From Chrysoperla carnea (Eukaryota > Arthropoda > Insecta > Neuroptera > Chrysopidae), in NCBI RefSeq assembly GCF_905475395.1, contig NC_058341.1, positions 74,645,597 through 74,709,596 of the forward strand: a stretch of 64,000 nucleotides of DNA. Direction: 5' to 3'. The stretch's first letter is position 1. Each line of letters starts with the position of its first letter. Shown here piece after piece: positions 5,058 through 55,370 of this stretch. A program made the translations under genes and the position numbers. The notes below the pieces were generated by a model. It made no database searches, had not been told where the DNA came from, and worked only from the letters and a program-made list of their open reading frames with translations.

Positions 5058-5389
5058 ATTGTGGAAGTCCATAATGATGATTTTATCTACGCCAGTGAGA
5101 TAAGAGCTACTTTTCTCACTCAGTATGCGTGGGAAACATAGTTCATTATCACCCTAGTGTCGTAATTAATTCATAAGCACTTGTATCGTTATGAATTCAT
5201 TACCACTCTCTAAATTACTGTCAAAATGGCTACAAGCTACAACAGGCTACTTTATTAAGTATTTAAATGTTATATTTTTATACACTGTGTATATGAAAAA
5301 TATATCAAGGTATACTAATTTTAGTCCCAAGTTTGTAATGTTTAGAAATATTGATGCTATTAACAAATTTTGGTATAGGTGTACATATA

Positions 5390-7278: not shown

Positions 7279-10200
7279 TTAGCCAACGTCCTTGTTGTCC
7301 TCCTCGTCTTTGGCCGCCTATCTGAAAATTATTAATTAGAGAAAAAAAATATACCATAAATTACAGATTTCTGTAAAAATAGTCAATATAAAATATTTCA
7401 CGGCTATCTTTTCTGATATACTCAATAATTACGACTATTATACATTTAAACAAAATAGAAAACCATACATATATTTTACCTGTGTAAAACAACCATACCA
7501 ATATTTCGGGTGTTATAGAAAGGGGACAAGCGAGAGCAATCTTTATCAATCTTTACGTTTAAACCTAGCGAAGCGGGTGGGTATCACTCTAGTTAAAAAT
7601 AAAGAATGAAATTCATGACTATAACACTCGACAAAATAATGATTAACGTATTGCAAACTACAGTTTGCAAAAATACAATAACTCTACGGAAATTATTGGG
7701 ATTGAATTGTACAATGCCAAAATTCAAACGCAAGCACATTATAATGAATTGACTTCCAAAGAAAATTTTTTTTTTTCCGTTTTTTTTTTTTGTTTTGAAA
7801 GTTAGTTAAAGTTCAAAAAATGCCATCTAAGCTATCGAAACCGATTTTTAATCGTGCATTTAATTAAAACTTTAATGTTAAATTTCAAATTTTTGTAATA
7901 TATACAATTATTAATGGTTTGAATCCAAAGAGTTTATATACATAGAAAAGGATCTGCTAGAGAAGGATACATCGCGAAGGATCTGCTAGCCTGAAAATGA
8001 GTTTCCCTATGTCCCTGCCATAGTCATATGTCATAATTATATGATGCATAGAGATTTTGTGTCTACTATTGTATTTGTTTTGTACAAAAAGAGGTTATAT
8101 AAAGTTTTGTATTATTTTTTCTGGAAAATGAAAAATGTTTAATATGCAGATTTGAATATTCTCCAATATGCGGCCGTAGTTTATACTAAGTAAACAATAT
8201 ACTAAGTTAAATAATTAAAGTCAATAAAACTTTTAGTTAGTTTTATTAAAAATTAAACTGTTTATATTGTGTTTGTTATGTAAATAAAGTTTCTTTTAAC
8301 GTTTCTACTTTTTGAATACCCTTTAATGTATTATATAATATTCCATAAATCGTTTTTTAATTATTTACTTAATAGCAATAATGTAAACAATATGTAGCCA
8401 ATGACATATAGATTATACAAGGACACAGGGGAACTCACTGACAGCCTCTCATTCATCATATCGCCAGTTTTGGGCTCTGATGTTCTCCTGTTGTATAAAC
8501 TTTTGGGTACACTATGAAATGTCAAAGCAGATGACGTCATGAATCATGGCGCACGATTCTGAAGTGTTTTAATATCACAATTTTTTTAACCGAGTATATT
8601 TATTACAAAACACTTTTAAAAGTAAATATTTTATTATAGGAATCATTTTTTTGGTCCCTTCAATCGATTCGACGTGTTTTTGGAACATGGAAAAATTTAC
8701 TGGAAGTGTCTATTGTTTTAATATTTTTTATATTACCATACTAATGGACTTATTTTTGTATCTTATTGTAAAATAAATAAGAATAATAATTATTATGATA
8801 GAAAACACAGTATACGATATACCTGATTGGCTGCTGCAGCCGCAGTAGCTGGAGTAGCTGGTGTAGCTGGAGTTGCTGGAGTAGCTGGAGTAGCGGGTGT
8901 GGCGGGTGTGGCGGGTGTAGCTGGAGTAGCTGGAGTAGCTGGAGTAGCCGGAGTAGCCGGAGTAGCTGGAGTAGCTGGAGTAGCTGGTGTAGCTTGTGTA
9001 GCAGGAGTAGCCGGGGTAGCAGGAGTAGCTGGAGTAGCTGGTGTAGCTGGTGTAGCTGGAGTAGCTGGAGTAGCTGGTGTAGCTGGGGTAGCAGGTGTAG
9101 CTGGAGTAGCTGGAGTAACTGGAGTAGCTGCAGAAAACTATAAAAAGAATAATAAATTGAAATTGATTTAAGAAAATTGTTGATAATTGATTGGTGATAA
9201 ATAAAATATTTATATGAAATATTAAAATATTTCAAATAAAAAAGATGTCAAAATGTTCTTTTTTTGGTCTCTTTGTATTGTGTTAATATATATTAAATTT
9301 TACGCACCAGTTATTTACATATTCACGGCAACTTAAAAAATAAATAACAAACTCTATATTATTTATCATTTTAAAATGAATCAAATGCACTTCAATATAA
9401 ATATCATCGTATCAATATATAGCTTATGGAAATATACAGAATGTTCGACTTACATCTAGGCATATAAATATCACGAGTATGACAGAGTACACGCGTTAAG
9501 CAATGCATCTAAGTAAGAGGTATTATAGGTGTTATATGAAATTGCAAAAGTAACTTGTATCGTGGCTTGTCTGTTGTAGTTAAACTATTCAACTAAGAAA
9601 CTTCCGCTCTCCAAGCATCTTACAACTATCTCAACGCATATCGAAGCTTCAAAACATGTAGATAATAGCTCTCACTTAGATGCATTGCTTAACGCATGTA
9701 TTCTGTCATACTCGTGATATTTATATGCCTAGATGTAAATCGAACATTCTGTATAGCTTTAGTTTCAATATTTAGCTTATAGAAATTAATGAAAAAAGTA
9801 CACTGTTTTTGAAAAAAATGTTTATAGAAAAAACAATGTTGAAAACTATCTATTTTAGCATCCTTAAAAACATATTTAAATAGTAAGATTTTAAACGCAT
9901 GGCTTACGAAAACGTTCATTTTTTCGATTTTTCCTATTTATCTCAAAAACTGAAGGTTCTGTGAAAAAACTTCCATACAAAAGTTGAACCCTATATCGCG
10001 TTTATTATTTCATACATTCACTTCTTACTAGTACATCTGTCTCAGCATCTTCCCATAAAAAAGTACGAGCTGCTACACATAGGTCGAAATTTTTTTGTAA
10101 TAGTTTGATTAACTTTTATTTTCCCTTCCCATAAAAGCGCGAATCATAACCGGTTCATGCATGTACAACTGGAATGATACCTCTGGGTTTTTTACGTTCA

Positions 10201-12592
10201 AAACTAAAACAATCATACACCGAATTACTTTCGAATTTGACCTCGGCTTATAAAAATAAATATTTCTACCGTATGGTGGAACTTTGTCTACTATAACGAC
10301 TATTATGTATTTTCAGATACTGTGACTGCACTTTGCACGATTAATGCGTCGGAATCTTTGACAGCTTGGCCCATCTTAATTCCACGAACTTGCACTTTCG
10401 CATCAGTATTTCGATTATAATTGCTTTTTATTTTTTTTTTTTATAAAATAAAATTAAAGAATCTTGTTTCATCGGAATTTTACTATCGATATTGAAAACG
10501 AAAATGAGGATGAAAATGAAAATAATGTTGATGAAAATGATGTCAATGATGACGATGCTGACAACGACGGTGTGATTGATGACTATTTAGGTAAATGCGA
10601 TGCAGAAATACGCAATGAAAGTGATTTAGAAAAAAACGAAGATTGAATTATTGTTAAATTGTATTATTGTATAAATATTCTGATCATAAAAAGCAATTAA
10701 TCTGATAAATATTTTACACAATAATGAAAGAAAAAATCAAAATATACAGTTTTGGTCATTTTTCGCTAAAAATAGGATAAAAAAAAATTATATATCGAAA
10801 ACTAAAGGTTGAAAAAAAAGTTGCCCACAAAATTGTATGTATTTCAATTGTCTACAGCTTTTGTACGAAGCTTTTTTTCATTGAACCTTCAGTTTTGGAG
10901 ATAAATAGGAAAACCCAAAAAAGTGAGGTTCTAGAGCTATCTTAAAAATGTAATGAGCTTTATATTACGGCGCATAAAGTGCACTAATAAGGTATTTGAT
11001 TTGATAGTTAAGGGTGCGACAGGTTTTCTATGGGTCGCATAAAGTTAATGAGCATTAGGCTAAGATAATATAACCAACGTGACAGTATATATTTTCTCCT
11101 CTCACTCTTATATGAGAAAAACGCGCACTTTAATAGTGTAGTTGTTGCGTCTTAGATCATACCCATTTCTAGGATTTCGTAAGAAAGCGTGCTTCACGTT
11201 GCGCGCTCTATAATGACGTTTAACGTCGTATTATTGTTAGACAATGAGCACAAATCGCGGTATTAATTATTGTAGTCTAATGTTACATACGTTATACTGC
11301 ATTTGTTTATTTTGTTTAAGTAGGCAATTTACTTAAATTGCTTTACTGTATAAGCCATGTGCCTACTCTGAAATCGTTTCCCACTCTGAAAACTTATTAG
11401 CTTCTCAATTGATGTAAATTGATTTTTAAACTTAAAATAATACAAACAATTGATGATAAACATTGTATATACAGGCTATTTCAACAATTAACAACTAAGT
11501 CAATTGTTTTTTTCTCTTGTTTTAATGTAATTTTAAAAAAGAGGATTGCGCGCGTGCTTGAATAACTTAAAAATATACGATCTTAAAATAAACATCTGGG
11601 TCAATTTGAAAGCTAGGAAGTCGAATAAAAAACGATGTACAAATGTGCACAATTACTGCAACTACAACTTTTATTATTTTATATTTTTTTATTTGTTGCA
11701 CAACGTTTTTGTAATTTATGATATGTTTTTAAACAACCAAAAATGCTTTTTCGTATAGATATATAATATTATTTTACTATTCAAATTAAGATGAGCATTT
11801 CTGTGGGCTGTATTATGCATTTTGTTAAAATATATCCCCTTAAGGACCCACAATACCCAGTTTATTGCTTAATTATACTTGTGGTGTACACTTTTTACCT
11901 GTTTTATTTGAATGGTGATCGAAAAACAACACAATTTGGGCAGTGTTTCTTTTAGTTACCTGTTTCATTTATGTTGTGTCGAGATACGATATTTTATTCT
12001 ATTTTTCACCTTTTTATTTATCTTTCCTATTATTATTTTTTGATTTAATTTTTATTTTTTATTTTTGCTTATTATTTTTACTTAATTTGATTTTTTGTTT
12101 GTTTCAGTTTGTCATTTGGTAAAATTTTTTATTTTGTTTTAGGTGAAAGCAGGCAGTTACATTGTTTTAGAGGGTGTAACATAAAGATTTATTATTATTA
12201 TAATCGGGTAAATAATTTTATTTTTATTTTAAGGGTAATATTTTATTATTATTTGTTTCAGTGTGATGCGGTCTCTTTCGGATTTGTAAATATTTTTTAA
12301 TTTTAAGATTGTTTTAATTTTAAGAGGTTTAATGCTACTGAAGAGGATTGCCAAAGCAATCGAAACCGGTCTAGCTAATTAATAATTTTATAATCTAGCT
12401 AAATATTTTTATTGTGGGTCCTTAAGGGGATATATTTTAACAAAATGCGTTATTTTACTAAATGACCCCAAGTGATTCATAAAAAAGTTAAATAGTAAAA
12501 ATGAAAAATAAATAATAATAGTTTGTACTTACTTGAACTGTTGCTAACGCAACTAATGAAACGATAATGATTAAAAATACGTTAAAATTCAT
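7268..12592 (-). CDS. Gene A: secreted (Ala-Thr-Pro)31 repeat protein, ~142 aa, three exons
   Basis: Predicted exons on the minus strand are 12592-12533 (20 codons, ATG to a GTAAGT donor), 9137-8823 (105 codons, acceptor TTTTTATAG, donor CAG|GTATAT) and 7321-7268 (17 codons plus TAG, acceptor TTTTCAG). All junctions are phase 0 and the frame stays open throughout. Exon 1 is a signal peptide (MNFNVFL, then a hydrophobic core, cleavage likely after ALA). Exon 2 reads FSA, 31 Ala-Thr-Pro units (one Val-Thr-Pro, one Ala-Thr-Gln), then ATAAAAANQ. Exon 3 is basic and Gly/Gln-rich ([17 protein letters not shown]). The product should be secreted. Regular Thr beside Pro and Ala is a good substrate for mucin-type O-glycosylation, and the repeat matches fish antifreeze glycoproteins in composition. 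The same DNA also gives open Leu/Gln and Gly-Val-Ala frames in other readings, but only this one joins the signal exon. Function is unproven; a mucin, silk or antimicrobial role is also possible. Confidence 0.6.
7350..7590 (+). mobile_element. Helitron-like 3' part in intron 2 of gene A
   Basis: Matches 61090-61285 (TTCTGATATACTCAAT, a CGAAGCGGGTGGGTATCA block, ending CTAGTT). A GC-rich short hairpin followed by a CTAG-type terminus is what Helitron 3' ends look like. No Rep/helicase is present, so it is at most a non-autonomous piece. Confidence 0.4.
7640..7750 (+). pseudogene. LINE reverse transcriptase C-terminal relic (intron 2 of gene A)
   Basis: Plus-strand frame reads [23 protein letters not shown], then after a deletion [12 protein letters not shown] and a stop. 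This is the C-terminal tail seen in full at 22.05-22.26 kb and again at 27.3 and 51.5 kb. The downstream LINE 3' end (TTTTTGTATCTTATTGTAAA with an ATT-rich tail, 8755-8800) lies right beside the exon-2 donor of gene A; the part in between is displaced by later insertions. Confidence 0.65.
7930..8500. repeat. Dispersed repeat family R2 (AGGACACAGGGGAACTTACT type)
   Basis: Two partial blocks, about 7960-8030 and 8395-8490, share CGAAGGATCTGCTAG / AAGGACACAGGGGAACTCAC and CAGCCTCTCATTCATCATAT. Related copies lie at 38.69-38.82 kb and 41.86-41.98 kb, in either orientation. Non-coding, intronic in gene A. Confidence 0.5.
8850..9128 (-). repeat. 9-bp coding minisatellite of gene A exon 2
   Basis: Tandem 9-bp units GCT-ACT-CCA with variation almost only at third codon positions (GCT/GCC, ACT/ACA/ACC, CCA/CCC/CCT). 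It is a GC-rich island in very AT-rich surroundings. It encodes 31 tripeptides, with two amino-acid replacements in 93 codons. Confidence 0.85.
9434..9754. mobile_element. Foldback/MITE-like element in intron 1 of gene A
   Basis: Arms of about 80 bp (9434-9517 and 9674-9754) are nearly perfect reverse complements, including CATCTAGGCATATAAATATC and GTTAAGCAATGCATCTAAGT, around a ~155-bp centre. No coding capacity. The outer edges may extend to AGCTTAT motifs at about 9421 and 9779. Confidence 0.7.
9913..10930. mobile_element. ~1-kb element with ~75-bp imperfect terminal inverted repeats
   Basis: 9913-9990 and 10845-10930 are imperfect inverted repeats sharing TTTCCTATTTATCTC, AAAACTGAAGGTTC and TACAAAAG. 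The interior carries the acidic frame at 10464-10646 but no recognisable transposase. A further partial repeat of the terminus lies near 10780-10830. Likely a non-autonomous DNA element within intron 1 of gene A. Confidence 0.5.
10464..10646 (+). CDS. Acidic Asp/Glu/Asn-rich short frame, unrecognised
   Basis: A 60-codon frame from ATG whose middle is almost all D, E and N ([19 protein letters not shown]) and which ends LEKNED. It sits inside the inverted-repeat element. Acidic tails like this occur at the ends of some transposon and chromatin proteins, but low complexity makes any assignment unsafe. It could be the last exon of a lost transposase or chance. Confidence 0.2.
   Translation: MFHRNFTIDIENENEDENENNVDENDVNDDDADNDGVIDDYLGKCDAEIRNESDLEKNED
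10940..11816. other. Intron 1 of gene A, no further gene seen
   Basis: The stretch 10980-11330 is of higher complexity and lower A/T than its surroundings but has no readable protein or known RNA motif. Confidence 0.4.
11817..12452. mobile_element. MITE with ~38-bp terminal inverted repeats
   Basis: The ends are near-perfect inverted repeats: GCATTTTGTTAAAATATATC followed by CCCTTAAGGACCCACAAT on the left, and its complement at 12413-12452. The 636-bp element is AT-rich with no transposase. It lies in intron 1 of gene A, about 80 bp downstream of the signal-exon donor. Confidence 0.75.
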
Positions 12593-12923: not shown

Positions 12924-13016
<93 letters not shown>

Positions 13017-19740: not shown

Positions 19741-20500
19741 GGGATTACAAAAACTTGTGGCTCACTAGAGATAAACAAAGAATTTTAGAGTCCAGGTTTA
19801 GCACCTTATACCAAAACATGATAACTAATGATTCAGTAGAGCCATACCTAAATTACAATATAAACTTTGCAAAGATAAGACTAATTAGCCAATTGAGAAT
19901 GGCAGGCATTTTAAAAATAAAAATCACCGCCAATAGTCTCACACATAAAAGGCTTCAACACCAAATATGTGACATTTGTAACAGAGAGCAGCCAGAAACC
20001 ATTACTCATTTGATCTTAACTTGCCCGATCTATAATTCCTTAAGAAAACACTATTTAGAAAAATACTTAGTCTCAAACCTCAATTTAGAAAACCAAATAA
20101 TTAACCTTCTGACGATCCCTACAACTAACAAACTAAATGACATATATTATTATGTCTGCAACGCATTAAAAATGAGAAGCTTTATCCAGTTCGGATAACC
20201 AAAAAAGAAAAAAGAAATAAATAAAATAAATGATGTACAAATTTAGAAATTTAAACAATTTTTTTTTACCAATTAACAAATAGAACTGTTCAATTATTTT
20301 CTTAAACTAAAAGTCTGTATAAAATTTAGATAATTTAATTAATGTGTAAAATAAATAAAACTACTTAGTAATAAGGATAATACTAATAATTTAATTATAA
20401 GATTAGTGCTAAGCAAATTTGTAAAAGACATCTGTAGCTACCCCTGTAAAGCTTAATTGCAAAATACAGAAAAAATTATTATTATTATTATTATATAAAT
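19740..20500 (+). pseudogene. LINE 3' end: ORF2 C-terminal region with CCHC motif
   Basis: A 147-codon plus-strand frame (19755-20198) is intact. It contains the region after the reverse transcriptase: RLISQLRMAG and then CDICNREQPETITHLILTCP, a C-x2-C-x9-H-x4-C cluster found at the C-terminus of many LINE ORF2 proteins. About 280 bp of 3' UTR follows and ends in a (ATT)n tail near 20476-20493, typical for these elements. The upstream ORF2 is missing, as expected for 5'-truncated LINE insertion. Clade cannot be fixed by eye (I, jockey and R1-like elements are possible). Confidence 0.7.
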
Positions 20501-21677: not shown

Positions 21678-22049
21678 ATTGTTATAGTTAGTTTTCTTCC
21701 ATATTCACAGAATAACTCATTGGAAGCGAAGCTAATTTATTTTTACTGTGCAGTAATACTACTTTAAGACTAGTTTTATATAATATTACTATAAAATACT
21801 ATATAATACTACTATAAGACTAGTTTATGTTGTTACTAATATCAATGAAAACCTATATGATAGAATGTTTTGAATAGTTTTCCTGTTTTTGGGAGGTCAA
21901 AATCTATAAGAAAATGTAAAAAATTTCTATGCAGTTTTTTATTCGCAGACCTGTGTTATTATTATTATTATTATTATTTATTTTCACCATAAGATACAAA
22001 CGTACATAGGTATAGTCAACATGAAAATTAAATAAATTAAATTAAACTA

Positions 22050-22260
22050 TATGGGCACGACGTTACAATATGCTTCTTCAGCTCACGTTTAAATTTTGGC
22101 ATGCTCTCTATGTTTTTTAACTCTCCGGGAAGATTATTGTACAATTCACTTCCAATAATTTCCGGAGAGTTTTTGAACTTTTGCAATCTATAGTTTGCAA
22201 TATGCAAATCATTATTATGACGGGTGTTATAATCATGTATTTCATTTCTAAGTGATAGGT
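22050..22260 (-). pseudogene. LINE reverse transcriptase C-terminus, best preserved copy
   Basis: The minus-strand frame is open: HNNDLHIANYRLQKFKNS, PEIIGSELYNNLPGELKNIE, SMPKFKRELKKHIVT, then a stop. A 3' end TTGTATCTTATGGTGAAAAT with an (ATA)n tail follows at about 21955-21990. This Y-R...LYN.LP..LK....FK..LK pattern is the standard C-terminus of CR1/jockey-like ORF2. It is the master reference for the three shorter relics in the introns of the gene array. Confidence 0.75.
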
Positions 22261-22364
22261 TTTGATATTTTTTTTTTTTTATTATTTATTATCACATATT
22301 TACTTGGTCAATAAAAATAATAAGTTCTGGTATAGTATTTTGACACTAGAAGAAGTAAGAATAA

Positions 22365-23130
22365 ACGGTCCGAAACATCGGACAAGACTTTATTATATTA
22401 TAAAATTGATATATTATTCTTGTAATATTTTGATTAAAAGCAGCCAATTGTAAGTGTGGGCCTTCCCGAATTTTCCCGGATATGTGGGTTATACCAATCC
22501 TAGAAACACCTTAAGGTCTACCCTTGTGCGCAGTTTAATCGAAATCGTTAGAGCCATCTTTGAGAAAACCCAAAAAAAAGTTTTCCCAAAAATGTGAGCC
22601 TTCTCGAATTTTCCCGGATATGTGGCTTATAAAAATTCTAGGAACACCTTAAGGTCTAGCCTTGTGTCAAGTTTAATCGAAATTGTTAGAGCCATTTTTG
22701 AGAAAACCCAAAAAAAAGTTTTTCCCAAGAGTGTGGGCCTTCTCGAATTTTTCCAGATATGCGGCTTATACCAATTCTAGGAACACCTTAAGGTCTAGCC
22801 TTGTGCCTAGTATAATCGAAATCGATTGAGCCATTTTGGAGAAAACCCCAAAAATCCTGTTTTGGCCTAGAGGGAAGTACCCTTAAAAAAGGCCTAGGGA
22901 AAAAATGAAAAAATCGTCTGGAATTATGACCAAACGGAACCTATGTACCGAGTTTGAGAAAAATCGGTTGAAAATTGAAGGCTACAGCTTAGTAACAGAC
23001 ATACCGACATACCGAAGGACGCAACATTTTTTAAAACCACTTTTTTGGAATCAGGGATCCTCAAAACGTGTATTTCCGTTGAAACCCGGATTTTTTTATT
23101 TTATTTTATTATATTTATAATATAATAAAG
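22365..23130. mobile_element. Composite element R4, copy 2
   Basis: Starts AAACGGTCCGAAACATCGGAC-type, CAAGACTTTATTATATTATA and ends TATTATATTTATAATATAATAAAG. It contains about three 140-bp tandem units (22450-22850) in the opposite orientation to copy 1, then GACATACCGACATACCGAAG. Confidence 0.65.
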
Positions 23131-23149: not shown

Positions 23150-24390
23150 ATAAAAAAACGGTCCGAGACATCGGACAAGACTTTATTATTTCTTGTAATA
23201 TTTTTATTGAAAGCAGCCAATTGTAAGAATTATTTAAAAACAAGGAAAAGCTTCAGTTTCTTAACTTCACTAATTTGGCTTAGTTAAGTTTTATTTATTT
23301 CTTTATTTGATTTATTTGATTATGTGAACAATATAGCATAGCGGTATATTTGGAATCATATGGTAATGAGGAACAGACTTAGGTATTTTTTGGATTTAAT
23401 ATAATATTTAGAAAGATGTAGTTTGGTAAGGGTGAGGCTAAGCAAAGATTATCAAGTTACAAAAATTACTTAAAAAGACATTTTAAATAATATTTTATCA
23501 ATTTTGGGTAGAGTTGATTTGACCACATTTGACGATTTCATTCCCTCCAGCTTCAGGGCTCCAGGGGAAGGGGTCCCTGAGTTTAGTTATATCAAACCTA
23601 GGACCTTGTTGATATAAACCCTGATACGAAGTTTCACAGCTGTCCCCTCAGCTTCTCCCTAGAAAATCCCATTTTCCTGTATTTTGAAATGTTTTCCCTA
23701 TGGCGTGGCTTCTCGAATTTTCCTGGATATGTAGCCTATACCAATCCTAAGAATACCTTAAGGTCTAGCCTTGTGTCAAGTTTAATCGAAATGGATAGAG
23801 CCATTTTTGAGAAAACCCAAAAAAAAGTTTTTCCTAATAGTGTGGGTCTTGTCGAATTTCCCCGGATATGTGGCTTACACCAATCCTAGGAACATCTTTA
23901 GGTCTAGCCTTGTGCCTTGTTTAATCGAAATCATTTAAGCCATTTTTGAGAAAACCCCAAAAAAAAATATTTTTCCCAAGGATGTGGGCCTTCTTGAATT
24001 TTCCCGGATATGTGGCTTATACCAATCCTAAGAACACCTTAAGGTCTAGCCTTGCGCCCAGTTTAATCGAAATGGCTAGAGCCGTTTATGTGAAATCCCA
24101 AAAATCCTCTTTTGGCCCAAAGGAAAAAATGAAAAAATCATCTGGAATTATGACCAAACTGAACCTATGTACCGAGTTTGAGAAAAATTGGTTGAAAATT
24201 GAAGGCTCCAGCTTGGTAACAGACATGCCGACATACCGACAGACCGACATACCGACGAACGCAACATTTTTTAAAAACCACATTTTTGGAATCATGGACC
24301 CTTAAAACGTGTATTTCCGTTGAAACACCGATGTCGATTTTTTTTTCGATCACAATACTTTATTATATTTATAATATAATAAAGTAAAAA
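23150..24390. mobile_element. Composite element R4, copy 3
   Basis: Begins CGGTCCGAGACATCGGACAAG and ends CGATCACAATACTTTATTAT. It contains three 140-bp tandem units (23690-24110) and a run of CCGACATACCGACAGACC. An extra ~350 bp near 23280-23620 is absent from copy 2. The open frames are repeat sequence. Confidence 0.65.
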
Positions 24391-26140: not shown

Positions 26141-29100
26141 CTAACTCGCCTTTACCCCCATCTGAAAATGAGTAATTTAAAACAATTATTGGCGTTACAA
26201 TCAAATTTTGGTACACTAATTGGATGGAAGTATAGGTAGCACTGGAGATATTGCGTAACCCAAGAGATATTAGATAACCCAAAAAAGTAAGTATTTGAAA
26301 ATTTTAATTTCGTGAAAATATTTACCCGCATATTTTCATTAACGTGACGTTGCTCATATTCATACTCTTGTTTACATTGGGCCCTGAGATACAAGGGTGT
26401 AAAAGACAGCGATTTTACAGCCTGTATTTTCAATTTTCTAACAACATATTACGGATATACAGTTAGTGTCTCTATATGATACAGACGGTGATGAATATCA
26501 GTACTTTAATTATTTTCATAAATAAAGTTTAAAAAAAGTGCAAACAAACAATTGACTGAGATAACTGTTGAAATATCATGTATAGACAGTGTTGATGACG
26601 CAATCGTTTGTTTTTTGATGTCATGTTAGTAAAGAAAGACATCAACTCTTAAATAGCCACACACACATAACTAATATTCCCATATTAATACATACTGCAA
26701 AATTTGCACGTAATTTACGCCCTTGTGGCTAAACAGTAATGTTAACAAGAAAATATTTCAAACAAAAGTTGTTTATTTTTTTATAAGGAACACTTTTTAT
26801 ATTTAAACTTTTTTCACTTTTTACGTTCTAAGCCGCTATAATTCAGAACTGCAGCTTGATATCTTATTTTTGAGTTATCGTACTTACAGACAGACAGACG
26901 GACATACGGACGGACAACCGGAAATGGACTAATAAGTTGATTCTATGAACAATCAATACTAAAATATTTTTGTTCGTGGCATCAATATTGGTATAATAAC
27001 ATGGTATAAAAAAATTTTTTACGCCACGAAAATTTATCTAGCCACCAACTATTGGTAGCTTTCGAAAAATTTTCAACTCTATCTTCTGTAGTTTTTGAGA
27101 AAATAAAAATTCTTTGACTTAATTTGGACCGGCATGGAAAAACAAAGATATTTACGAAAAATGTTTAAAACAAAAGTTGTTTTTCAAAAAGGATTTTTTT
27201 TTAAATTTTTGTTCCATCTGTTGTGGTTTTAAATATAGGTCTTTAGGACCCAAAGGACCAAACTGCAGGTCCTTAGGACTTGCAGTTTGCATATTGCAAA
27301 CTGCAGGTTGCAAAAATACAAAAACTCTCCGGAAATGATTGGGAGTGAATTGTAAAATGTTCTTCCTGAAGACCTTAAAAACATAGAAAGTATGCCAATA
27401 TTAAAAAGCACATTATAATGAATTGTCTTTACATTTTGACTTAATTTTTTTAATATTTTTTATATTACCATACTAATAGTCTTATTTTTGTATCTTATGG
27501 TAAAATAAAAAACAATAATAATTATAATAGAAAACAGAGCATAACATTTACCTGTTTTGCAGAAGCTGGAGTAGCCGCAGTAGCCGGAGTAGCTGCAGTA
27601 GCCGGAGTAGCTGCAGCAGCTAGACGACCCCTAGCACCCTCAGCAGCCGCAAGAGCTGGTGTTGCCGCCGTGGCTGGAGTAGCCATAGTAGCTGGAGTAG
27701 ATGCAGAAATCTATAAAAAATAAAATTAATTGATTTTACGATATTGAAAGCAAAAAAAGTAAGACTTAAGAATTAAAATTAAAAAGTTCATTTTTCTTCA
27801 CAGAATATTATGCAGTATTTTCCATCAAATTTATCTTAAATTTTTCGCAGAATTTAGGATCACGCCCACGGTCACAGCAAATAAACAAGCCGTGGGTAGA
27901 GTCTGGTGCGACCCCTGAGGTTCACACGAAATTCTCAGCATAATAAAAAGTTATGAAATAAAGTTCAAAATTAAAACTCCGAAGATTACAAAATCACGCG
28001 CTTAAAAGTATTGAAACAAGAAAATATTTTCATCTGAAATTGAAACGATATGTAAACTCGTCGTTACAGCCGGGGGACTTCTAAGATTAAACAGTTTTCC
28101 ACAGGACGGAAAAGAGGTTCCCCGACTGTAATGACGATTTTACTTAGCATAACGGGTAAACAGAGATTTTTACGAAAAAGTTTTTATCATAGGAACATTT
28201 TTTACATTTGAACTTTTGTTCTATCTCTAACGGTTTACAACACGGGTTATTCGAACACAAGACCCAATTGACCTTTGCTGCTCATTTACGAACTCGACCT
28301 CACTTTTTATGCCCTGAGCACGCTATAAGAATTTCAGCTTGATATCTTTTTTCGTTTTTAGTTATCCTGTTAACAGACAGACGACAAACACAAACAGGCA
28401 ACCGAAAAAGGACTAATTACTTATGAAAACCTATACCAAAATTTTGTTGGTAGCATCGATACTTTTAAGAGTTACAAACTTGGGACTAAACTTAATGTAC
28501 GTCGATATATTTCATGTATACATGGTATACAGAAATAATTAATTATTCATATATTATTCGTATTCAGATATAAAAATAAATTAAACTCAAGATCCTTGGT
28601 AATGGTGGAATGGGGATTGAATTTAGGGGATTTTTTAAAATTTCAATTTTCTTGAAACTTGGTGGAAGTGTTTTTTTTTTCTTTTTTTTTTATTAATTTT
28701 TTGATTAAACATGAAATATATTAATTATATAACCGAGGATTTTTTCAGGCTTTTCAAATCTTCCATTAAAATAGGCCAATTTTTACCGAAACACTCTCTT
28801 GATGTTTTTTTCGCTTTTCATACTCTGCCCAGGCTCATTTTATCCGTTGAAATGTTAGCTTTAAAACCGTTCATTTGTAAATACGATAACTCAAAAACGA
28901 AAAGATATATCAAGCTGTAACTTTTATAGCGTGCTTAGAGCGCAAAAAGTGAGTTTGAGTTCGCAAACGAGCAACATAGGTCAATTAGATCTTGGGTCCG
29001 TAATATCCATCTTGTAAACTGCTAGAGATACAAGTTTATGAGTTTATAAGTTATAGAATAAAAGTTTATTACTTAAAAATGTTCCTTATAAAAAATAATC

Positions 29101-31654
29101 AACTTTTGTTTAAAACGTTTTTTCATGAAAGTCACTGTTTGCCCGTGAGAGCGCAAATTAGATTAAAACATTATGTAGTATGACACATGTATTGCATTGT
29201 ATCAAGTGTACATACATTGTTTATATTTTAAAGCATATGTTTGTTTAAAGCATATACTGAGTCCACTGAGAAAATGAGAAGAAATATATCCTAATTATTT
29301 ACAAACACTTAAAGTTGAAAGTGACTTAGAAAACATTTTTGAAGAGCCAGCAATTCGTCTAGAGGAAAATAACGAATTGGAATGCGATGATTTAAATTGA
29401 CCAAATACGATATATTGAGAAATTGTGCTCCGAAAATTCATTTTTTTCCGGATTTTAAACGTTTTAATGAAAAACAACGCCCAAACATATATAGGTCAAA
29501 CATAATGTAATGCATAAATTCAAAATATATACATTTATACTTGATATCACTGGAAACAGTGATGTTAATGAGAAAGTGTAAAACAAAAGTTGTTTATTTT
29601 ATTTATAAGAACATTTTTTACTTTGATGTTTTTGTTCTATATCTAACGGTTTACAATATGTTATCATTTACGAGCTCACACTCACTTTTTACATCCTGAG
29701 CACGCTATAAAAATTTCAGCTTGATATCTCTTTTTTCGTTTTTAAGTTCAAACGAAAAATCGTTTTATTTTTCTGGATTTTAAGAGGTTTAATGAAAAAT
29801 AAAGCTTATACATAGATCTAGACCATTTTAATGTTGGTATTTCAACGGTTCATGAGGCAAAGCATGAAAATCTCAAAAAATATCACGAAAGTTTTCTTTT
29901 AAAAATGACCAATGTTAACGGAAAATTTGAAAAATCTCAAAAAATATATTTTTCTGGGTTTTATAAAAATTCGCGCTCATTTAATAATACAAAATAAACA
30001 CTTCCACCAAAACAAAGTTTAAGGTTATGTTGAAAAATTTGAGGTTATGCCGAAAAAAGACCCATATAAAATTTTTTTAATTTTTTTAATTTTCTAGAAC
30101 TTTTCTGTAACACTTTTAACTAGCAGATCATTTGCCGCCCTAAATCACAAAAAAAAAAAAACGGTCTTAACCTCTAAAAGCAACTTCCGTTTCATCATTT
30201 CCAAGGGTCTGTAATTTAATGGACTATGTTACTGTCACCCTAAACTAATATTTCTATCAAGTTAGTAATTTGTAAAAAGAAGAAGAACAATCAAAATAAC
30301 GCTAGTGTATAAGATCACAGATATACGGTATTCATATTAAAAATTTAAAAAAATTTCAAATCGGCAAGTATTGTTATTTTGAAAATTAATATTTTCAGTT
30401 TTTATTCAGAGATTATAATAAATAATGAAAAGCATTATAAAAATTTTCAACCCTCGCTTTTAAAATGCTTTATCATTTATTTATCCGTTAATGAATGAAG
30501 AAGTTTTACTATTTTTTTTAATATAAAGTTGCCTGTAGAAGATTTCAATCAGAAAGTCAATTTTGAACATGTGTACCTACAATTACTTCAGGTAAGACTT
30601 TTATTCGTTGCATAGTTTTTTTGTTATTTGAAAATACTGATTCTAGAATATTGAACCCACTTTTTGGTACGAAATTGTTACAAACTTTTTAAATATTCAA
30701 TTTTATTGTACTAAATGACTCCAACTGGTTAATAAACCAAAGTGAAAGTGAAAATAAACAATTGACTTAGTTACTTGCTGAAATAGCCTGTATACACAAT
30801 ATTGAATATCAGTGCTTCCATTATTTTTAATAGGTAAGAAAATTTAAAAAAAAAATCTATTTTATGGCGGCTTAAGGTTTTCATTTGTTCTATTTCGAAA
30901 ATTTTTCGAAGTACTTTTTATACTTACTCTAGAAAACTTCTTTCGTTTTCTTTCATAAGACTTACTATTTGAAGTTACAAACAAATTTAACCTTCTGTTT
31001 TTGGACAAAATAAATCCCAAAATATTATCCTAATTTTCGTCTTCATGGGAAAGCAACTTTAATATTTACAAAAATATTTTTTAAATAAAAGTTTTCTATA
31101 AAAGTATTTTTTATAGGAAACATGTATTACATTTAAAATTTTGTTCGATCTCTTACGGATTACGTAAAAACCTAAGGACAGACGTAAGAACATAAATGGA
31201 CTAATTAGGTGATTTTTGGAACATCTATAACAAAGTTTGTTTCATATTATTAATAAGCGTTTAAAAATCGAGGCTAAAATCAGTATATCTTGATGTATTA
31301 TATTACACTACCCGTTTCACTGGGCAACTTCAATTTTATAACCTCTAAAATTATCAGTGTTTTTCTAATATATTATGCATGTATTATACATAAAAATCTT
31401 CCTCTTGTATAACTCTAACTATTAGAAAAACCACATCAAAATCCGTTGCGTAGTTTTGAAAGCTAAGCATACATAAGGACATAGGGCCAGGCAGTGGAAA
31501 GCGATTTTGTTTTATACTATGTATTGGTGATGTTAAGGGGATATAAAAACTTAAAATTATAAATAATTTAATAAAATAATAATAATTTACTTACTTGAAC
31601 TGTTGCTAATGCAACTAAAATAAGTAACATGGACAAAAATACTTTAAAATTCAT
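26141..31654 (-). CDS. Gene B: secreted mixed Ala-Ala-Thr / Thr-Pro-Ala repeat protein, ~79 aa
   Basis: Predicted exons on the minus strand are 31654-31595 (20 codons, MNFKVFL start, GTAAGT donor), 27710-27552 (53 codons, acceptor ATTTTTTATAG, donor CAG|GTAAAT) and 26161-26141 (six codons plus TAG, acceptor ATTTTCAG). All are phase 0. Exon 2 reads ISASTPATMATPATAATPAL, then a non-repetitive AAAEGARGRL, then a second run of alternating AATPAT ending ASAKQ. That alternation is like the short Pro-containing fish antifreeze glycoproteins. The middle EGARGRL could be a proteolytic processing site (Arg-Gly-Arg). Exon 3 ends early (MGVKAS) because of a TAG where genes A and D keep coding. Spacing and exon sizes match gene A. 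It is either a short functional paralog or a decaying one. Confidence 0.5.
26690..27010 (+). repeat. R1 dispersed repeat (intron 2 of gene B)
   Basis: Forward copy, ending with CAGACAGACGGACATACGGACGGACAACCGG and the AATACTAAAATATTTTTGTTC block. Confidence 0.6.
27270..27425 (+). pseudogene. LINE reverse transcriptase C-terminal relic (intron 2 of gene B)
   Basis: Plus frame HIANCRLQKYKNSPEMIGSE, a stop, NVLPEDLKNIESMPILK. The LINE 3' end TTTTTGTATCTTATGGTAAA with an ATT-rich tail reaches to within about 20 bp of the exon-2 donor (27551), exactly as in gene A. The insertion therefore predates the gene duplication. Confidence 0.7.
28140..28530 (+). repeat. R1 dispersed repeat, forward copy (intron 1 of gene B)
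   Basis: Full-length-looking copy from TAAACAGAGATTTTTACGAA to ACTTGGGACTAAACTTAATG. Confidence 0.65.
28860..29170 (-). repeat. R1 dispersed repeat, reverse copy (intron 1 of gene B)
   Basis: Opposite orientation to its neighbour at 28.14 kb, so the two could pair in an intronic transcript. Confidence 0.6.
29560..30320 (+). repeat. R1 copy fused to a ~560-bp repeat (family R5)
   Basis: 29560-29755 is R1. From 29757 it continues into a block (GGATTTTAAGAGGTTTAATG, TTTCAACGGTTCATGAGG, ACGGAAAATTTGAAAAATCT) that recurs at 59930-60560, also directly after R1. R1 plus R5 is therefore probably one longer element. Confidence 0.55.
30321..31590. other. Intron 1 of gene B, 5' part, with one repeat
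   Basis: No gene. 31310-31530 carries a block with ATCAAAATCCGTTGCGTAGT and AAGCGATTTTGTTTTATACT. I recognise this as a common type of short interspersed repeat in insect genomes; class uncertain. Confidence 0.4.
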
Positions 31655-33099: not shown

Positions 33100-33615
33100 T
33101 TCTCTATGCAATTTTCATTTTATCGTGCATTTGAATTTGCACATTGCAGACATTCGAAGAAAATAAATTACCTTTACTGTACAATTACGTAAGTTTGAAT
33201 ATTTATCAATTCATTTACGATTGTACAACCTATACTGAAGCCATTACTACATTGGACGCACTCTACATAAAGAAACGTAATATCATATTCGCTAGACATT
33301 GCTTATCCACGCGAAATCAACAAAGGGGAGAAACCGTTACTGAATACTTGCATGTGCTACATCAACTAAATACAGTCTGTAACTTTAATAATGTACAAGC
33401 CGACGATTATCGGAAGAAATATATTAGAGTTGTTTTTTCTACGAGGATTAAAATGTAATCGTATTTATCAACGATTTTTAGAAAATGCAACGTTGAATCT
33501 AAATGAAGCTTTCAAACAAGCTAGAACACTGGAATCATCTGAAATGCATACAGCTTCCTATGCGGGAAATCCTATCGTGACACCTGTAGCTGTAATAGAA
33601 AACCTTGGAAAATAA
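33100..33615 (+). pseudogene. Ty3/gypsy retrotransposon gag relic
   Basis: Frame 1 reads LPLLYNYVSLNIYQFIYDCT, TTLDALYIKKRNIIFARHCL, RGETVTEYLHVLHQLNTVCN. It shifts near 33425 into LFFLRGLKCNRIYQRFLENA, TLNLNEAFKQARTLESSEMH. This order (gag capsid-like region with the GETV.EYL.VLHQL and F..GL....I.QRLLE motifs) is that of Ty3/gypsy gag proteins in insects. At least one frameshift. Followed directly by the protease domain. Confidence 0.7.
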
Positions 33616-34186
33616 GAACAATCTATATCGGCAAAATACTTCAAATGTATCAACTTCTTCAGATACACTGGCAGCTATCCCAGGAGCTAGCCACTGCCTC
33701 CAGAAATCAATCACTAATGTCTCCGTGAATAATATCAAACTCAAATCATTGATCGATACAGGTACTTCTCTTAGTTTTCTCAATGCAAAACACGTAGAGA
33801 AGTGTAAAGTGAAAATACAACCATATTTGGGAAAAAATTTTATGGCAAATTCTTCTATGATTGTGGAAACAGTAGGATGCTTTAAGATAAATTTAATAGT
33901 TAAAAACTTCACATACCAAAACGTGGATCCATTAATAATGAAAAATCATTGTTGTGATGTACTGATTGGTCACAACATCCTAAAACGACATGCATCTGTG
34001 GAGATCGGATTTGATGGGGATAAACTCCCACTATCAATCTGCTCTTTAGCTATAGCACAAGTACCTCCTGTTTCACTGTTTGGTAACCTAAACCCAGATT
34101 GTAAGCCCGTTATAACAAAGTATAATAATAATGGGGTTTTTCTGACATACGCCTATAACAGAGGCCACCCACATCATTATTTGTAA
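33605..34186 (+). pseudogene. Ty3/gypsy aspartic protease relic
   Basis: The frame includes LKSLIDTGTSLSFLNAKHVE, in which DTG-T-S is the retroviral-type aspartic protease active site, followed by VLIGHNILKRHASVEIGFDG, the second conserved (hydrophobic-GxDIL-like) region, here with H for D. The domain is intact over about 150 codons. A short insertion or duplication containing CACATCATTATTTGTAAATA interrupts the path to the reverse transcriptase. Confidence 0.7.
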
Positions 34187-45179: not shown

Positions 45180-45730
45180 AGGGCCCACAACCCAGGGAAA
45201 ACCTTTTTTTTGGGATTTTCTCAAAAATGGCTCTAACAATTTCGATTTAACTTGACACAAGGCTAGACCTTAAGGTGTTCCTAGGATTGGTATAGGCTAC
45301 ATATCCAGGAAAATTCGAGAAGGCCCACACCCTTGGGAAAACTTTTTTTTGGGCTTTTCTTAAAAATGGCTCCAACGATTTCGATTAAACTAGGCTCATG
45401 AATAGACCTTAAGGTGTTTCTAGGATTGGTATAAGCCACATATCCGGGAAAATTCGAGAAGGCCCACATCCTTGGGAAAACATTTCAAAATACAGGAAAT
45501 TGGATTTTCTAGGGAGAGGCTGAGGGGACAGCAGTGAAGCTTCGTTTCAGAGTTTATATCAACAAGGTCCTAGGTTTGATATAACTACCCTCTGGGACCT
45601 CTTCCTCTGGAGCCGTGGAGCCAAAATGAAATAATAGAATTGGCTGCTTTCAATCAAAATATTTTAAGAATAATATATCAATTTTATAATATAATAAAGT
45701 ATTGTCCGATGTTTCGGACCGTTTATTAAA
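45180..45730. mobile_element. Composite element R4, copy 4 (short)
   Basis: Two 140-bp units (45190-45475) are followed by the conserved tail CAACAAGGTCCTAGGTTTGA, TTTTATAATATAATAAAGTA and TTGTCCGATGTTTCGGACCG. The other end is missing. Confidence 0.6.
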
Positions 45731-50589: not shown

Positions 50590-51660
50590 GGATAGCTTAA
50601 TAAAGAATTTATGCTCACTTTCCTCTGTGTGAACCTTGGAGTTCCACAGGTTTCAAATCTTGGACCATTATTGTTCTTAACATATGTTCTACCGGTCTAT
50701 TTTCTGCATGGGCAATTGCTACTGTATGCAGATAACCCGTCTGTGATATTATCTTCAGATAATTTACATGGTTTGGTGAATGAAATGAGTATAATAATGG
50801 AATAATTTGCTGATAGTACAGAAATAACTAAATAATCATAAATATGACCAAGGCAATGTTTTTTTTCTCTTTTTAAATAAAGTTATTGATTCATCTATTA
50901 TTACAACATCAATAATATATTCGATTAAGCAAGTAAGCGAAATGCATTTTTAGGAATGATATTAGATGAAGATATGAAATGGTAGTGGCATGTTGACATT
51001 TTGTGTAAGTACGAATTATTTTTATATCAAAAAATTAAAAATGAGTTATTAATGTCTGTGTATTATACGTTTGTGTACATTTCCATGCAGTATTGTGCAA
51101 TATTAGGGGGATAATTGTCAAATTGTTCACAAATATGTATTCTACAAAACATAATTATTCGGCTCATGTTAAATCTTGATTATCGACAATCATTTAGTGG
51201 ACAGTTAGTGGTTGAAGGTATACCTTACAACGGGTACAATGTTGGATTTATCCAATGGAAAAAACGTGTAAAAGCCCGTGTGGAAGGTTGCTATAGAGAT
51301 AATATGCTGAAAATATGCTAAAGATAATATGCTGTAACAAATGGTCTCTACAAACTTTTAACATGATCGGAAAATTTGGGAAAGTGATGTGATGTGATAA
51401 TTTTTGATAGTTTTTTAATAAATAAATCAAAGTAACAACTTAGTAATGAAATTCATGAATATATCACTCTCCAAAATAATAATTTGTACATTGCAAACTA
51501 CAGGTTACTAAAATACATAATTTGTCCGGAGGAAGTATTGTGGCTGAATTGTACAATAATTTTCCTGGAGATCTTAAAAACATAAAAAGTATGTCAAAAT
51601 TTAAACGTGAGATGAAAAGGCGCATTTTAATGAATGATCAATAGGTTCCTTCTTTACACA
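50590..51660 (+). pseudogene. LINE reverse transcriptase relic (intron region of gene C)
   Basis: The plus frame at 50611 reads LGVPQVSNLGPLLFLTYVLP, then LLLYADNPSVI. These are RT motifs B and C with the catalytic YADD changed to YADN. Further on come ILQNIIIRLMLNLDYRQS and, at 51481-51645, LYIANYRLLKY then AELYNNFPGDLKNIKS and SKFKREMKRRILMND. This is the longest of the intronic relics and shows that the tails in genes A and B came from the same LINE. Confidence 0.75.
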
Positions 51661-51720
51661 GTTTAACTTAATTGTTTTAATTTTTTTATATTAACATACC
51701 TATGTACTAATTTTTGTATT

Positions 51721-52782
51721 TTAAGCCGCAGTAGCTGCTGTAGCCGCAGTAGCTGCAGTAGCTGCAGTAGCTGCAGTGGCCGCAGTAGCTGCAGTAGCCG
51801 CAGTAGCTGCAGTAGCTGCAGTAGCCGCAGTAGCCGCAGTAGCTGCAGTCGCCGCAGTAGCCGCTGTAGCTGCAGTTGCTGCAGTAGCCGCCGTAGCTGC
51901 AGTCGCTGCAGTAGCCGCAGTAGCTGCAGTCGCTGCAGTAGCCGCAGTAGCTGCTGTAGCTGCGGGAGCTGCAGATATCTATGAAAAATAAAATAAAATG
52001 ATAAATAAAATTGTTGATAATTTATTGAAACATAAAATATTTTGACTCAGTCACTTAGAAAATAAATAACAAACTCAACCGTTTTAAAATGAATTAAATG
52101 CACTTGTATCAATATTCACCTGTAACTTGCTTTGTTCGCAAAGGAATTCCTCTGCGTGACAGAAAAATCTTTACATGAGTTGAAAACTACCGAATCTTTA
52201 TGGTTTGTAAGTGCGAACATTTTGACCTTGCATTTTAGTAGTGCGCACAGGTTGATCTCGTATAACATTTCTGCAGATGGATCGATCCTGAATATTGCAA
52301 TTGCGCCTTCCTTTTATTTTGAAAGTGCGCACATTTAGACCTTATATATTAGTAGTGCGTACAAGTTGATCTGTTTTCATAGATCTGCTCATGGATTCAT
52401 ACTGATTATTACAACTGCGCATAGATAAGTCTTAAATATTATCATTTTCTAATGGCAGCGGTGAATAAATTGAGTTTTTCGAATTAAGCTCTTAATTTGC
52501 AGGTATTCTGCGTTGATTGCAAAAAATCGCACCTTTCTTTCTAGCATGTAAAGTGGTGGTTTTGGGGTAGGTGGTTTCGAGGTGTTTTTTTCCATTTTCA
52601 AGTGGGGTGGAGAAAAATTTAACGAATAATCTCACTAGTTCTAAGAAATGTCCCACCAAATACAATAAATCCCGTCTTTCAAATATAGATAGAAGTTAAA
52701 AGGGTAACTAAGTGAGGCTAAGTGGCGTTGCTCATATTTAGAAGGTAACCTTGTGTTGCACACTTACATAGTTATCAGTCCT

Positions 52783-52861
<79 letters not shown>

Positions 52862-55164
52862 CAAATCGGAAGGGAACAACTAAATATTCGTTATATCAAG
52901 TAACTCGTGAAGCTGAGGCTTGTTACATTGAGTTTAGGTTGGTCTAAACTTTGTTATAGACAGGTAGTTAATGATGTTTCTCTTTTCTGCGACTTATAAA
53001 GAACACCTTTTAGTTTCTGAGCCATTGCAACATGACTTTTTAACAATAGTGACGACTCGCAGTATTTACATTACTTTCCATCCAACAGCAATTATTGTTA
53101 AAAAAAAAAAAAAACGGGTCGGAACTTTCGCGACATAAATCACATACTATGGGATTAAGGGGATTGGTGGGTATGTTATATAAAGGTTTTGGGTTGACAA
53201 AATTCGTAAATTAGAGGTATTTACACATCTTTTTTATAGTTGAAAATTCGTTATAAAGAGGTTGTTCGCAATGTAAAGGTATATTTTACATTGACCCTTA
53301 TGGGCAATTTAAGGGGGCTACGAAAAATTTGTTAAATCGAGGAATTCGTTACATTGAAAAACATGTTTACTTGATACAATACAATACCTGTATGCATACT
53401 AAATAATGTTTTTAACCTAATTTGCGCCCTGACGGATAAACAGTAATGTTTACGAAAAAATGCTTCAAACAATAGTTGTCGAGGAACATTTTTACAACTA
53501 AATTTTTGTCTCTAACGGTTTACGAGAACAGTTTACGACGACCCAATTGACCTATCTTGCTCATAAATGAACTCGACCTCACTTTTTACGTTCTAAGCAC
53601 GCTATAAAACTTTCAGCTGAATTTACCTTTTCGTTTTTGAGTTATCGTGTTCACAGACGGAGAGATGGATAGTCGGAAATCGACTATATAGGTGATTTTA
53701 TGAACACCTATACCCAAATTTTGTTCGTAGCATCAATATACGTTAAAAACTTGGGACTAAATTATTTATTCATAAAATGTTTTATGTATGTTTTAAAAAG
53801 AAATTACTTAGTGGGCTGAGTTGAAAAATGTGTATTAAATTTTGATGTTGTTGGTATCCTAATATTCTATTATAAGTTCCAAATTCAGTAACTACCTGGT
53901 AGTCAACTAATCGAAGTTATAGTAGGTATGTAAACTATAATTAAAACTATTTACGTAAATCTAAATCTTAAATCTTGTAAACTTTGTCTATTTAGTCCAT
54001 TAACTTTTCCACTATTGTCTAAGAGACCACTCCAACGTCTGTGAGCCGTTCAAGACAAGTTAACTATCTATCACTGAAACGTGCAATTTCTTCACGCACT
54101 GTGAGCACTTCGAGACTACGTTATATCGTCATTACGCACATAATATGGATATTCACTAATTGCTTGTAACACTTTTGATTGAAACCGTTGAAGGATTTCA
54201 ATGATACTGTTGCTAGCAGTTCCTCATAGTTGGATCCAACAAGTCCGCACAGATTATAGGATGGTTTTATAAACTACCACTTTATTGTCTAATGATAACT
54301 TTTGTTTATGGCCTTACAGCCAGTAAAGTATTGAAAATTTTAAAGTTAATTGTTTTCTCTGAGACCAGATGTATTTCCGCCAAGTTAGCCTTCTAACTAA
54401 GTGAATTCTCAGATATTTCACTTCGTTTGCCTTTATGGAAAACTGACACTGTTCATTTTTACAGATGGGAAAGTTTCTCTTCTCATAGTTTTACTTGAAC
54501 GGATTTTTGTTTATTTTCTTGAATACGTCACTTTTGTTACCAGTTTTTTACCTTATTTATACTATTTTGTAGCCTTTGAGAAGCTGCATTTAGGTCCAAA
54601 TCTATGGATAATATCATCTGCAATAGTAGCTGTGGTTTTTTTTCTGTCCACTAGTAAGTAGACAGTTGGGCCCAGAAGCTACCCTGAAGTACACCAAATT
54701 GAATAGAAAAGAAGTCAAAAAACTCCTCATGAACTTTGACCTGGAAATGTCGGTCTTCTAAATATGATTTTAAAATACACTAATATTTACTTGAGAGAGT
54801 AGTACTTAATTTGTAAAGCAAGCCGGGGTGCCATACTTTATTGAAGGCCTTGTTGGCAAATTGGTTAGCTACAAATTTTATTCGATTTTTTTTTGCATAA
54901 TTTTTTTGTAATTCGTAAAAACTGATTTTTTATAACCCCCAAAACCTCTCCCATAGTAATCGATTTGTCAGAACGAAGTTTTTGTAACCTTCTAAACAAC
55001 TGCCAAATTTCAAAGATGCAACTCTTTTTTCCTCAAACATTTTTAATTTTATTGTACTAAAAAGTTAGAAGTGGTAAATATCAATATTAATAGTTTTTAC
55101 TTACTTGAGTTATTGCTAACGCAACTAATGTAACGAATATGAACAAAAATACTTTAAAATTCAT
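51721..55164 (-). CDS. Gene C: secreted (Ala-Ala-Thr)26 repeat protein, ~105 aa, two exons
   Basis: Predicted exons on the minus strand are 55164-55105 (20 codons, MNFKVFL start, long hydrophobic core, likely cleavage after ALA, GTAAGT donor) and 51978-51721 (85 codons plus TAA, acceptor ATTTTTCATAG), joined in phase 0. Exon 2 reads ISAAP, then 26 uninterrupted Ala-Ala-Thr units, then AA and stop. Every difference between units is at a third codon position. (Ala-Ala-Thr)n is the backbone of fish antifreeze glycoproteins, where each Thr carries a disaccharide; glycosylation here is inferred. Compared with A and B, the end of exon 2 with its CAG|GT donor has been deleted, so the protein stops at the repeat. 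Intron 1 holds a LINE relic on the same strand. The frame is fully open and the promoter has a good TATA box, so expression is plausible. Confidence 0.55.
51724..51972 (-). repeat. 9-bp coding minisatellite of gene C
   Basis: 27 nine-base units GCN-GCN-CCN/ACN. All Ala codons are GCA/GCG/GCT/GCC and all Thr codons ACT/ACA/ACG, with no change at first or second codon positions across the 26 Thr units. Confidence 0.9.
52190..52450. repeat. TGCGCA minisatellite, second array
   Basis: Shares GTAGTGCGCACAGGTTGATC and ATATTACAACTGCGCAT type units with 40.37-40.71 kb. Intron 1 of gene C. Confidence 0.6.
52785..52860. repeat. (TA)n microsatellite
   Basis: Pure TA run; unlike the one at 12.9 kb I see no paired inverted flanks. 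Confidence 0.85.
53410..53770 (+). repeat. R1 dispersed repeat, forward copy
   Basis: Among the most complete copies, from TTTGCGCCCTGACGGATAAA to ACTTGGGACTAAATTAT. Confidence 0.7.
53950..54880 (-). pseudogene. Jockey-like LINE reverse transcriptase relic (intron 1 of gene C)
   Basis: On the minus strand, from 54865 down: [48 protein letters not shown] (RT motif B region, from GVPQGS), then a decayed catalytic box region, then [35 protein letters not shown] and a decayed C-terminal stretch near 54050 ([11 protein letters not shown]). The order matches jockey-type ORF2 from RT palm to C-terminus. Many stops and frameshifts. The long plus-strand frame at 54401-54661 is its antisense shadow. 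Confidence 0.7.
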
Positions 55165-55242
55165 TGTAGTTTATTTTTGATTGTTTATTTTGGATAAAAG
55201 TTGTTATTTTCTCAAACTATAATCATAAAATAATTTTCATTG

Positions 55243-55370
55243 TTTATATACAAAAATGTATTAACAAATGCAAGATGATGCATGACGAATACTGGGTTTT
55301 TCGAAGTTTTTTTGTTTTCTTCTGAGAATATTTTAAAAAGTAGCTTGCAAATATAAAATTCAGACTTCTT
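55243..55370 (-). promoter_or_regulatory. Gene C promoter: TATA box and conserved upstream block
   Basis: TATATAAA at 55250-55243, 79-86 bp before the ATG. The shared block 55343-55370 (AGAAGTCTGAATTTTATATT then TGCAAGC) lies 179 bp before the ATG, nearly the same offset as in gene A. Confidence 0.5.

Follow-up and report, generated by a model that had tools for sequence, protein, structure and literature searches.

A tandem family of three putative secreted proteins built from Ala-Ala-Thr and Ala-Thr-Pro triplets resembles antifreeze glycoproteins in insect DNA

Our analysis of a 64-kb stretch of insect DNA (here, the window) identified three genes, A, B, and C, each of which joins a short signal-peptide exon to an array of Ala/Thr/Pro triplets. 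Together, these genes spell the code of the fish antifreeze glycoproteins (AFGPs), Thr-(Ala/Pro)-Ala, with gene A composed entirely of Ala-Ala-Thr (AAT), gene B nearly all Ala-Thr-Pro (ATP), and gene C mixed. They very probably constitute a real secreted gene family, and the best reading, to which we assign a probability of roughly 0.4, is that they form a tandem set of AFGP-like cold protectants that are secreted and densely O-glycosylated. The family offers a testable case, outside fishes, of the design of their antifreeze glycoproteins; a tick example had already been described. The sequence itself establishes how the genes are built, that they are homologous to one another, and that the encoded triplets are under constraint.

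Gene A is the gene that had been reported in the initial annotation of this DNA. The coordinates and frame of its signal exon, described as having a clean GTAAGT donor, proved correct, as did the phase-0 acceptor of the repeat exon. This is an ATAG acceptor (TTTTATTTTTCATAG/ATA), from which the joined frame stays open to a TAA stop at positions 51723-51721 (-). Translation bears out the count of 26 perfect AAT repeats in exon 2, and the broader proposal that the gene encodes a secreted (Ala-Ala-Thr)n protein whose backbone is that of AFGPs is supported, with the paralogues contributing Thr-Pro-Ala as well. Spliced in phase 0, the gene A product is 105 amino acids long (20 + 85) and runs from the signal peptide through ISAAP to the 26 repeat units. 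If cleaved after ISA, the mature chain would comprise 82 amino acids (6.65 kDa), 26 of them Thr; its mass would rise to about 16 kDa if every Thr bore the disaccharide.

TABLE 1 Predicted features of genes A, B, and C, in coordinates of the 64-kb window
Feature	Position	Strand	Description
Gene A exon 1	55105..55164	(-)	Predicted signal peptide; donor CAA/GTAAGT
Gene A intron 1	51979..55104	(-)	GT...AG, phase 0, 3126 bp
Gene A exon 2	51721..51978	(-)	ISAAP + (AAT)26 + AA + TAA stop
Gene A putative 5' UTR and core promoter	55165..55270	(-)	TATATAAA, then ~28 bp later conserved TTATAGTTTGAG
Gene A AATATA hexamer	51687..51692	(-)	Candidate variant poly(A) signal
Gene B exon 1	12533..12592	(-)	Predicted signal exon; donor CAA/GTAAGT
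Gene B exon 2	8793..9137	(-)	FSAATPVTP + 29 ATP units + ATAAAAANQ + read-through tail VYRILCFLS, stop
Gene B donor-like CAG/GTATAT	8823/8822	(-)	Could lead to a third exon
Gene C exon 1	31595..31654	(-)	Predicted signal exon; donor CAA/GTAAGT
Gene C exon 2	27522..27710	(-)	ISASTPATMATPATAATPALAAAEGARGRLAAAATPATAATPATAATPASAKQ + read-through tail VNVMLCFLL, stop
Gene C donor-like CAG/GTAAAT	27552/27551	(-)	

Two paralogues of gene A lie in the same window and in the same orientation; they were missed by the initial annotation and are the strongest evidence presented here. Gene B spans positions 12592 to 8793 (-) and encodes a run of (Ala-Thr-Pro)n with almost no deviation, 1 of the 29 units having Q in place of P. 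Gene C spans positions 31654 to 27522 (-), and its repeat frame on the minus strand is a mixture of AAT and PAT (TPATAATPATAATPA) that contains PATAAT and has one non-repeat interruption, AAAEGARGRLAAA. Arrays with 9-bp units of the gene A kind were identified by Tandem Repeats Finder at 8844-9130 (gene B) and 27558-27621 (gene C). Two exons per gene are sequence-based models for all three.

We scanned both strands of the 64 kb for hydrophobic Met exons of 16 to 27 amino acids followed by a phase-0 GT donor. Seven hits were obtained, and three of these are the homologous exons of A, B, and C. As predicted for the AFGP class, an N-terminal signal peptide is thus encoded by three homologous Met exons, the call being based on hydropathy and the donor scan rather than on a dedicated signal-peptide predictor. 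A six-frame scan for Ala/Thr/Pro-rich stretches returned exactly three, one downstream of each signal exon at a distance of 3.1 to 3.9 kb; the introns are 3126 (A), 3884 (C), and 3395 (B) bp long, in the order of exons 55164-55105, 31654-31595, and 12592-12533. With up to three mismatches allowed, a 25-base start-codon pattern has three matches in the window, all at the A, B, and C exons (shuffled expectation, 0.00), and it has no exact match in viral_contigs. The presence of three homologous exons, each with its own array, indicates a tandem family rather than a single gene. We also considered the coincidence of a lone repeat, which is ruled out by the three homologous copies.

In each gene, joining the two exons gives a frame that stays open from the ATG to the stop, and the GTAAGT donors and ATAG acceptors are common to the three genes. 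The 100 bp upstream of the ATG and exon 1 are 80 to 87% identical between pairs, with gaps left out of this and all following identities (-100 to -1: A-C, 84/97; A-B, 83/97; B-C, 81/99; exon 1: A-C, 50/60; A-B, 51/60; B-C, 48/60). The first 60 intron bases are 59 to 74% identical (A-C, 33/56; A-B, 38/56; B-C, 40/54). Further upstream, conservation is uneven, being low at 100 to 200 bp before the ATG (A-C, 54/82; A-B, 39/59; B-C, 51/71, with many gaps) and higher again at 200 to 350 bp (A-C, 116/146; A-B, 95/124; B-C, 83/124). The identity in this last interval indicates that the conservation is in part a result of recent common descent. By eye, a TATA-like element is located approximately 80 to 90 bp before the ATG (TATATAAA in A, TATAAATA in C, and a weaker, degenerate TACAAAAA in B), and the TTATAGTTTGAG stretch of gene A, also read by eye, is a possible transcription start.

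Within the intron interiors, compared on both strands at an E value of ≤1e-3, the common pieces are only short or repeat-like. The A and B introns align only at their ends, over 29 bp on the donor side and over 65 and 74 bp close to the acceptor. Six pieces (23 to 354 bp) are common to the introns of A and C, and the longest of them (354 and 340 bp) are repeat-like; four of the six lie in a stretch of A at approximately 53363-53770 that matches several places and so looks like a dispersed repeat. Between the B and C introns there are three common pieces (18, 62, and 86 bp), and the 86-bp piece is inverted. Long (TA)n microsatellites are present within the gene A intron (52785-52860) and upstream of gene B (12924-13013).

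Homology among the three genes restarts at the acceptor and continues beyond the stop to an AATATA at 51692 (A), 27466 (C), and 8734 (B). Gene A stops at once and apparently lacks the tail stretch of the other two, a seeming deletion relative to B and C. The ...NQ of gene B runs into GTATAT and the ...KQ of gene C into GTAAAT, each a donor or read-through. The donor-like sites could lead to a third exon or be read through to a near stop followed by AATATA, and the two fit equally. A shared 3' flank at 51540-51640 (+) is also found at 7605-7715 and 27286-27359. Read by eye in the + frame, the gene A 3' flank is similar to the terminal part of a retroelement protein and to an open reading frame (ORF) at 22037-22285, for which there was no Pfam match.

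To what extent the encoded triplets are constrained can be read from the positions of substitutions within the arrays. Scored against the unit consensus GCAGCTACT over 26 units, the gene A array has all 19 of its substitutions at third codon positions (10, 5, and 4 by codon) and none at the 156 first and second positions. Across the 29 units of gene B, 24 of 25 substitutions are at third positions and 1 is at a second position. An even fall of substitutions would give the gene A pattern with a chance of about (1/3)^19 = 1e-9, a figure that exaggerates the case, since slippage spreads substitutions from unit to unit and they are not fully independent. Judged by this exclusive third-position pattern, the (AAT)26 of gene A is not due to chance.

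In all three arrays, the antisense (+) frame likewise contains no stop, encoding Ala-Ala-Val or Val-Ala-Gly (Ala-Ala-Val in A). We therefore rejected inference of the strand from the array alone: since both strands are open with identical synonymous sites, the array reveals triplet constraint only, and the exon anatomy fixes the strand. On the gene models presented here, the minus strand is settled by the exon/intron anatomy common to the three copies. The differences in exon 1 number 4/2/3 (A-B), 2/4/4 (A-C), and 4/2/6 (B-C) by codon position and change 6, 7, and 6 amino acids, respectively, mostly hydrophobic for hydrophobic. No codon-position bias was detected in these three pairwise comparisons; the differences are spread over positions, so exon 1 alone carries no codon-position signal of selection.

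The genes of notothenioid AFGPs share with the gene models described here the architecture of a signal exon, an intron, and a repeat exon, and likewise encode a secreted AAT polymer. They are described as encoding a trypsinogen-derived polyprotein with Leu-Ile/Asn-Phe linkers (PMC8622921), and linkers of this description have no counterpart in A, B, or C. Gadid AFGP is described as (Thr-Ala/Pro-Ala)n, the product of a family of genes with imperfect 9-nt repeats (PMC8622921), so that repeat code, unit length, and family organization are all shared with A, B, and C. By the same account, the gadid repeat starts in exon 3, after the 5' UTR, signal peptide, and propeptide, and the genes encode large polyproteins with Arg/Lys cleavage sites (PMC8622921), whereas A and B each encode one uncut repeat block and only C has Arg (GARGR). 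Four triplets are said to be sufficient in an AFGP, with up to 55 in fishes (PMC4340617), which places the 26 of gene A well within range. Cleavable LI/NF or Arg/Lys linkers, as in the fish lineages, are absent from the repeats of A and B, and C has one Arg insert. Beetle and budworm antifreeze proteins are beta-solenoids, and we know of no beetle, budworm, or springtail antifreeze protein built of AAT or ATP. The insect and springtail proteins are, like A, B, and C, secreted repeat proteins, those of springtails being described as Gly-rich polyproline II helices with GXX repeats (PMC10235112).

The initial annotation had proposed, as one of two readings, that gene A represents a third, convergent origin of an AFGP-like protein. 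The novelty that this implies, a first case outside fishes, is too strong a claim, as tick IAFGP is an already published arthropod AFGP-like protein with AAT/PAT repeats. This protein of Ixodes scapularis is described as a 23.2-kDa product in which a signal peptide is accompanied by Ala-Ala-Thr repeats and by sites predicted to be O-glycosylated (PMC3302814), and it was presented as the first AFGP of this species by those who described it (PMC4340617). It is reported to be cold-induced and protective (PMC4340617, PMC3302814), and its gene (GenBank DS704943) to have a TATA box and two putative coding exons (PMC6065373). In these descriptions, it resembles A, B, and C as an arthropod protein with a signal peptide, AAT repeats, and predicted O-glycosylation; its two putative coding exons may correspond to the two-exon models of A, B, and C, and the TATA box has possible counterparts, by eye, in A and C and a degenerate one in B. 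The PATAAT repeat reported in full-length IAFGP (PMC5364132) also occurs in gene C. The tick protein differs in its size from the three smaller paralogues, in which AAT and ATP are mostly in different genes, and peptides with a PARKAR head were designed after its repeat (PMC5364132). The design common to IAFGP and A, B, and C, a likeness judged from descriptions, does not show shared descent.

In the best reading, the signal peptide would be cut after [I/F]SA, leaving a mature chain that begins at the repeat. The Thr residues, one at every third position, would gain mucin-type O-glycans, and the chain would become an extended rod bearing sugars and methyl groups. The most likely use of such a rod would be as an extracellular cold protectant, via ice adsorption or recrystallization inhibition. 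Heavy O-glycosylation of the three proteins is likely, and ice activity can be proposed only tentatively. Ice activity is plausible as the most specific hypothesis, with a mucin-like structural role nearly as likely. The main mucin-type O-glycans of Drosophila are reported to be three, Tn, T (core 1), and glucuronylated T (PMC8558370). As core 1 (Gal-GalNAc, the AFGP sugar) is among the structures that Drosophila makes, an insect could in principle produce the AFGP disaccharide; sugars left as bare Tn, or glucuronylated, would not be of the AFGP type. Native AFGP activity is reported to depend both on the hydroxyls of the disaccharide and on the methyl groups of Thr and Ala (PMC8207503). Tick IAFGP indicates that such a protein can serve an arthropod. 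Against the AFGP-like reading, gene B is without the AAT repeat and could as easily be mucin-like, and the repeat of gene C is interrupted.

More doubtful is the further proposal that an insect lineage evolved AFGPs independently of fishes and ticks, with a fish-type mixed repeat split into all-AAT, nearly all-ATP, and mixed genes and with core 1 supplying the sugar. AFGPs are a classic example of convergence at the molecular level, and the Ala-only and Pro-rich genes would be a natural experiment on the role of each triplet. An arthropod family of this kind would also support the idea that, in animals with core-1 O-glycosylation, a slipping 9-bp repeat behind a signal peptide is enough to make such a protein.

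Repeat proteins of insect cuticle, silk, and mucins can resemble A, B, and C, and secretion combined with Thr/Ala/Pro repeats is the design of a mucin too. One possible alternative, which we hold to be a serious one, is that the family encodes secreted mucin-like or structural low-complexity proteins (salivary glue, peritrophic or egg coat, cuticle, or silk) whose role would lie in lubrication, adhesion, or hydration and not in any ice activity, such that the AFGP resemblance would be convergent backbone chemistry only. The nearly pure ATP run of gene B is in keeping with this possibility, and the full Ala/Pro exchange tolerated among the paralogues suggests that composition and O-glycan density outweigh exact ice-facing geometry. 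Yet the triplet register is exact, A and B have almost no other residues, the proteins are small for mucins, and a Pfam search at an E value of 0.01 returned no family for A, B, or C.

An improbable alternative is that these are antimicrobial or anti-biofilm secreted peptides that bind bacterial cell walls. IAFGP and the derived peptide P1, described as six AAT units behind the cationic PARKAR head, are both reported to bind peptidoglycan, and P1 to lower biofilm (PMC5364132). However, the A and B repeats are without a charged residue and only C has a short Arg insert, while P1 variants with changed repeats, including P0 with the native PATAAT, are reported to have left biofilm unreduced (PMC5364132). 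Least probable of all is a pseudogene reading, in which the arrays would be 9-bp minisatellites, decaying or without coding function, beside relic signal exons, or one in which the + strand is transcribed. The open + frame in all three arrays, the degraded array of gene C, the C terminus of gene A with its seeming deletion, and the degenerate TATA-like element of gene B each lean in that direction, but three joined frames that are open throughout, common donors and acceptors, a conserved upstream block, and array variation almost solely at third positions argue against it.

Protein searches with A, B, and C, weakened by the low complexity of the queries, returned compositional matches only and no informative homologue. 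The gene A query, at 111 residues two AAT units longer than the genomic 105, had one match at an E value of ≤0.01 (E = 3.8e-3) among 7989 scored candidates, a Thr/Ala/Val-rich protein of 84 amino acids with a different N terminus. Gene C had no match at an E value of ≤1 among 1470 candidates, and gene B had 652 at an E value of ≤10 of 7991 scored. In the gene A match and the best 120 of the 652 gene B matches, no unbroken triplet run exceeded 6, and neither MNF.VF nor LVALA[IT] occurred in the first 30 residues. We found no insect AFGP in the open-access literature, although this is limited evidence, as coverage was mainly at the title and abstract level with subscription papers mostly outside it.

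The DNA of the window is AT-rich (27 to 35% GC) and includes retroelement pieces, in keeping with an insect source. Those at 33599-34186 (+) and 19710-20198 (+) comprise a gag-type aspartyl protease (PF13975, E = 3.4e-9) and a weak zf-RVT match below the Pfam cut-off. An ORF at 4860-5153 (-) containing MKLSIINIFIVLGLTGIFSSEAAFYAES, with no Pfam match, looks like another secreted-protein exon. A tandem unit of approximately 140 bp (consensus by eye) occurs as dispersed short arrays in both orientations, at 18165-18862, 22452-22854, 23709-24104, and 45182-45485. Arrays of 161/160 bp are found at 91-475 and, in the opposite orientation, at 2449-2825.
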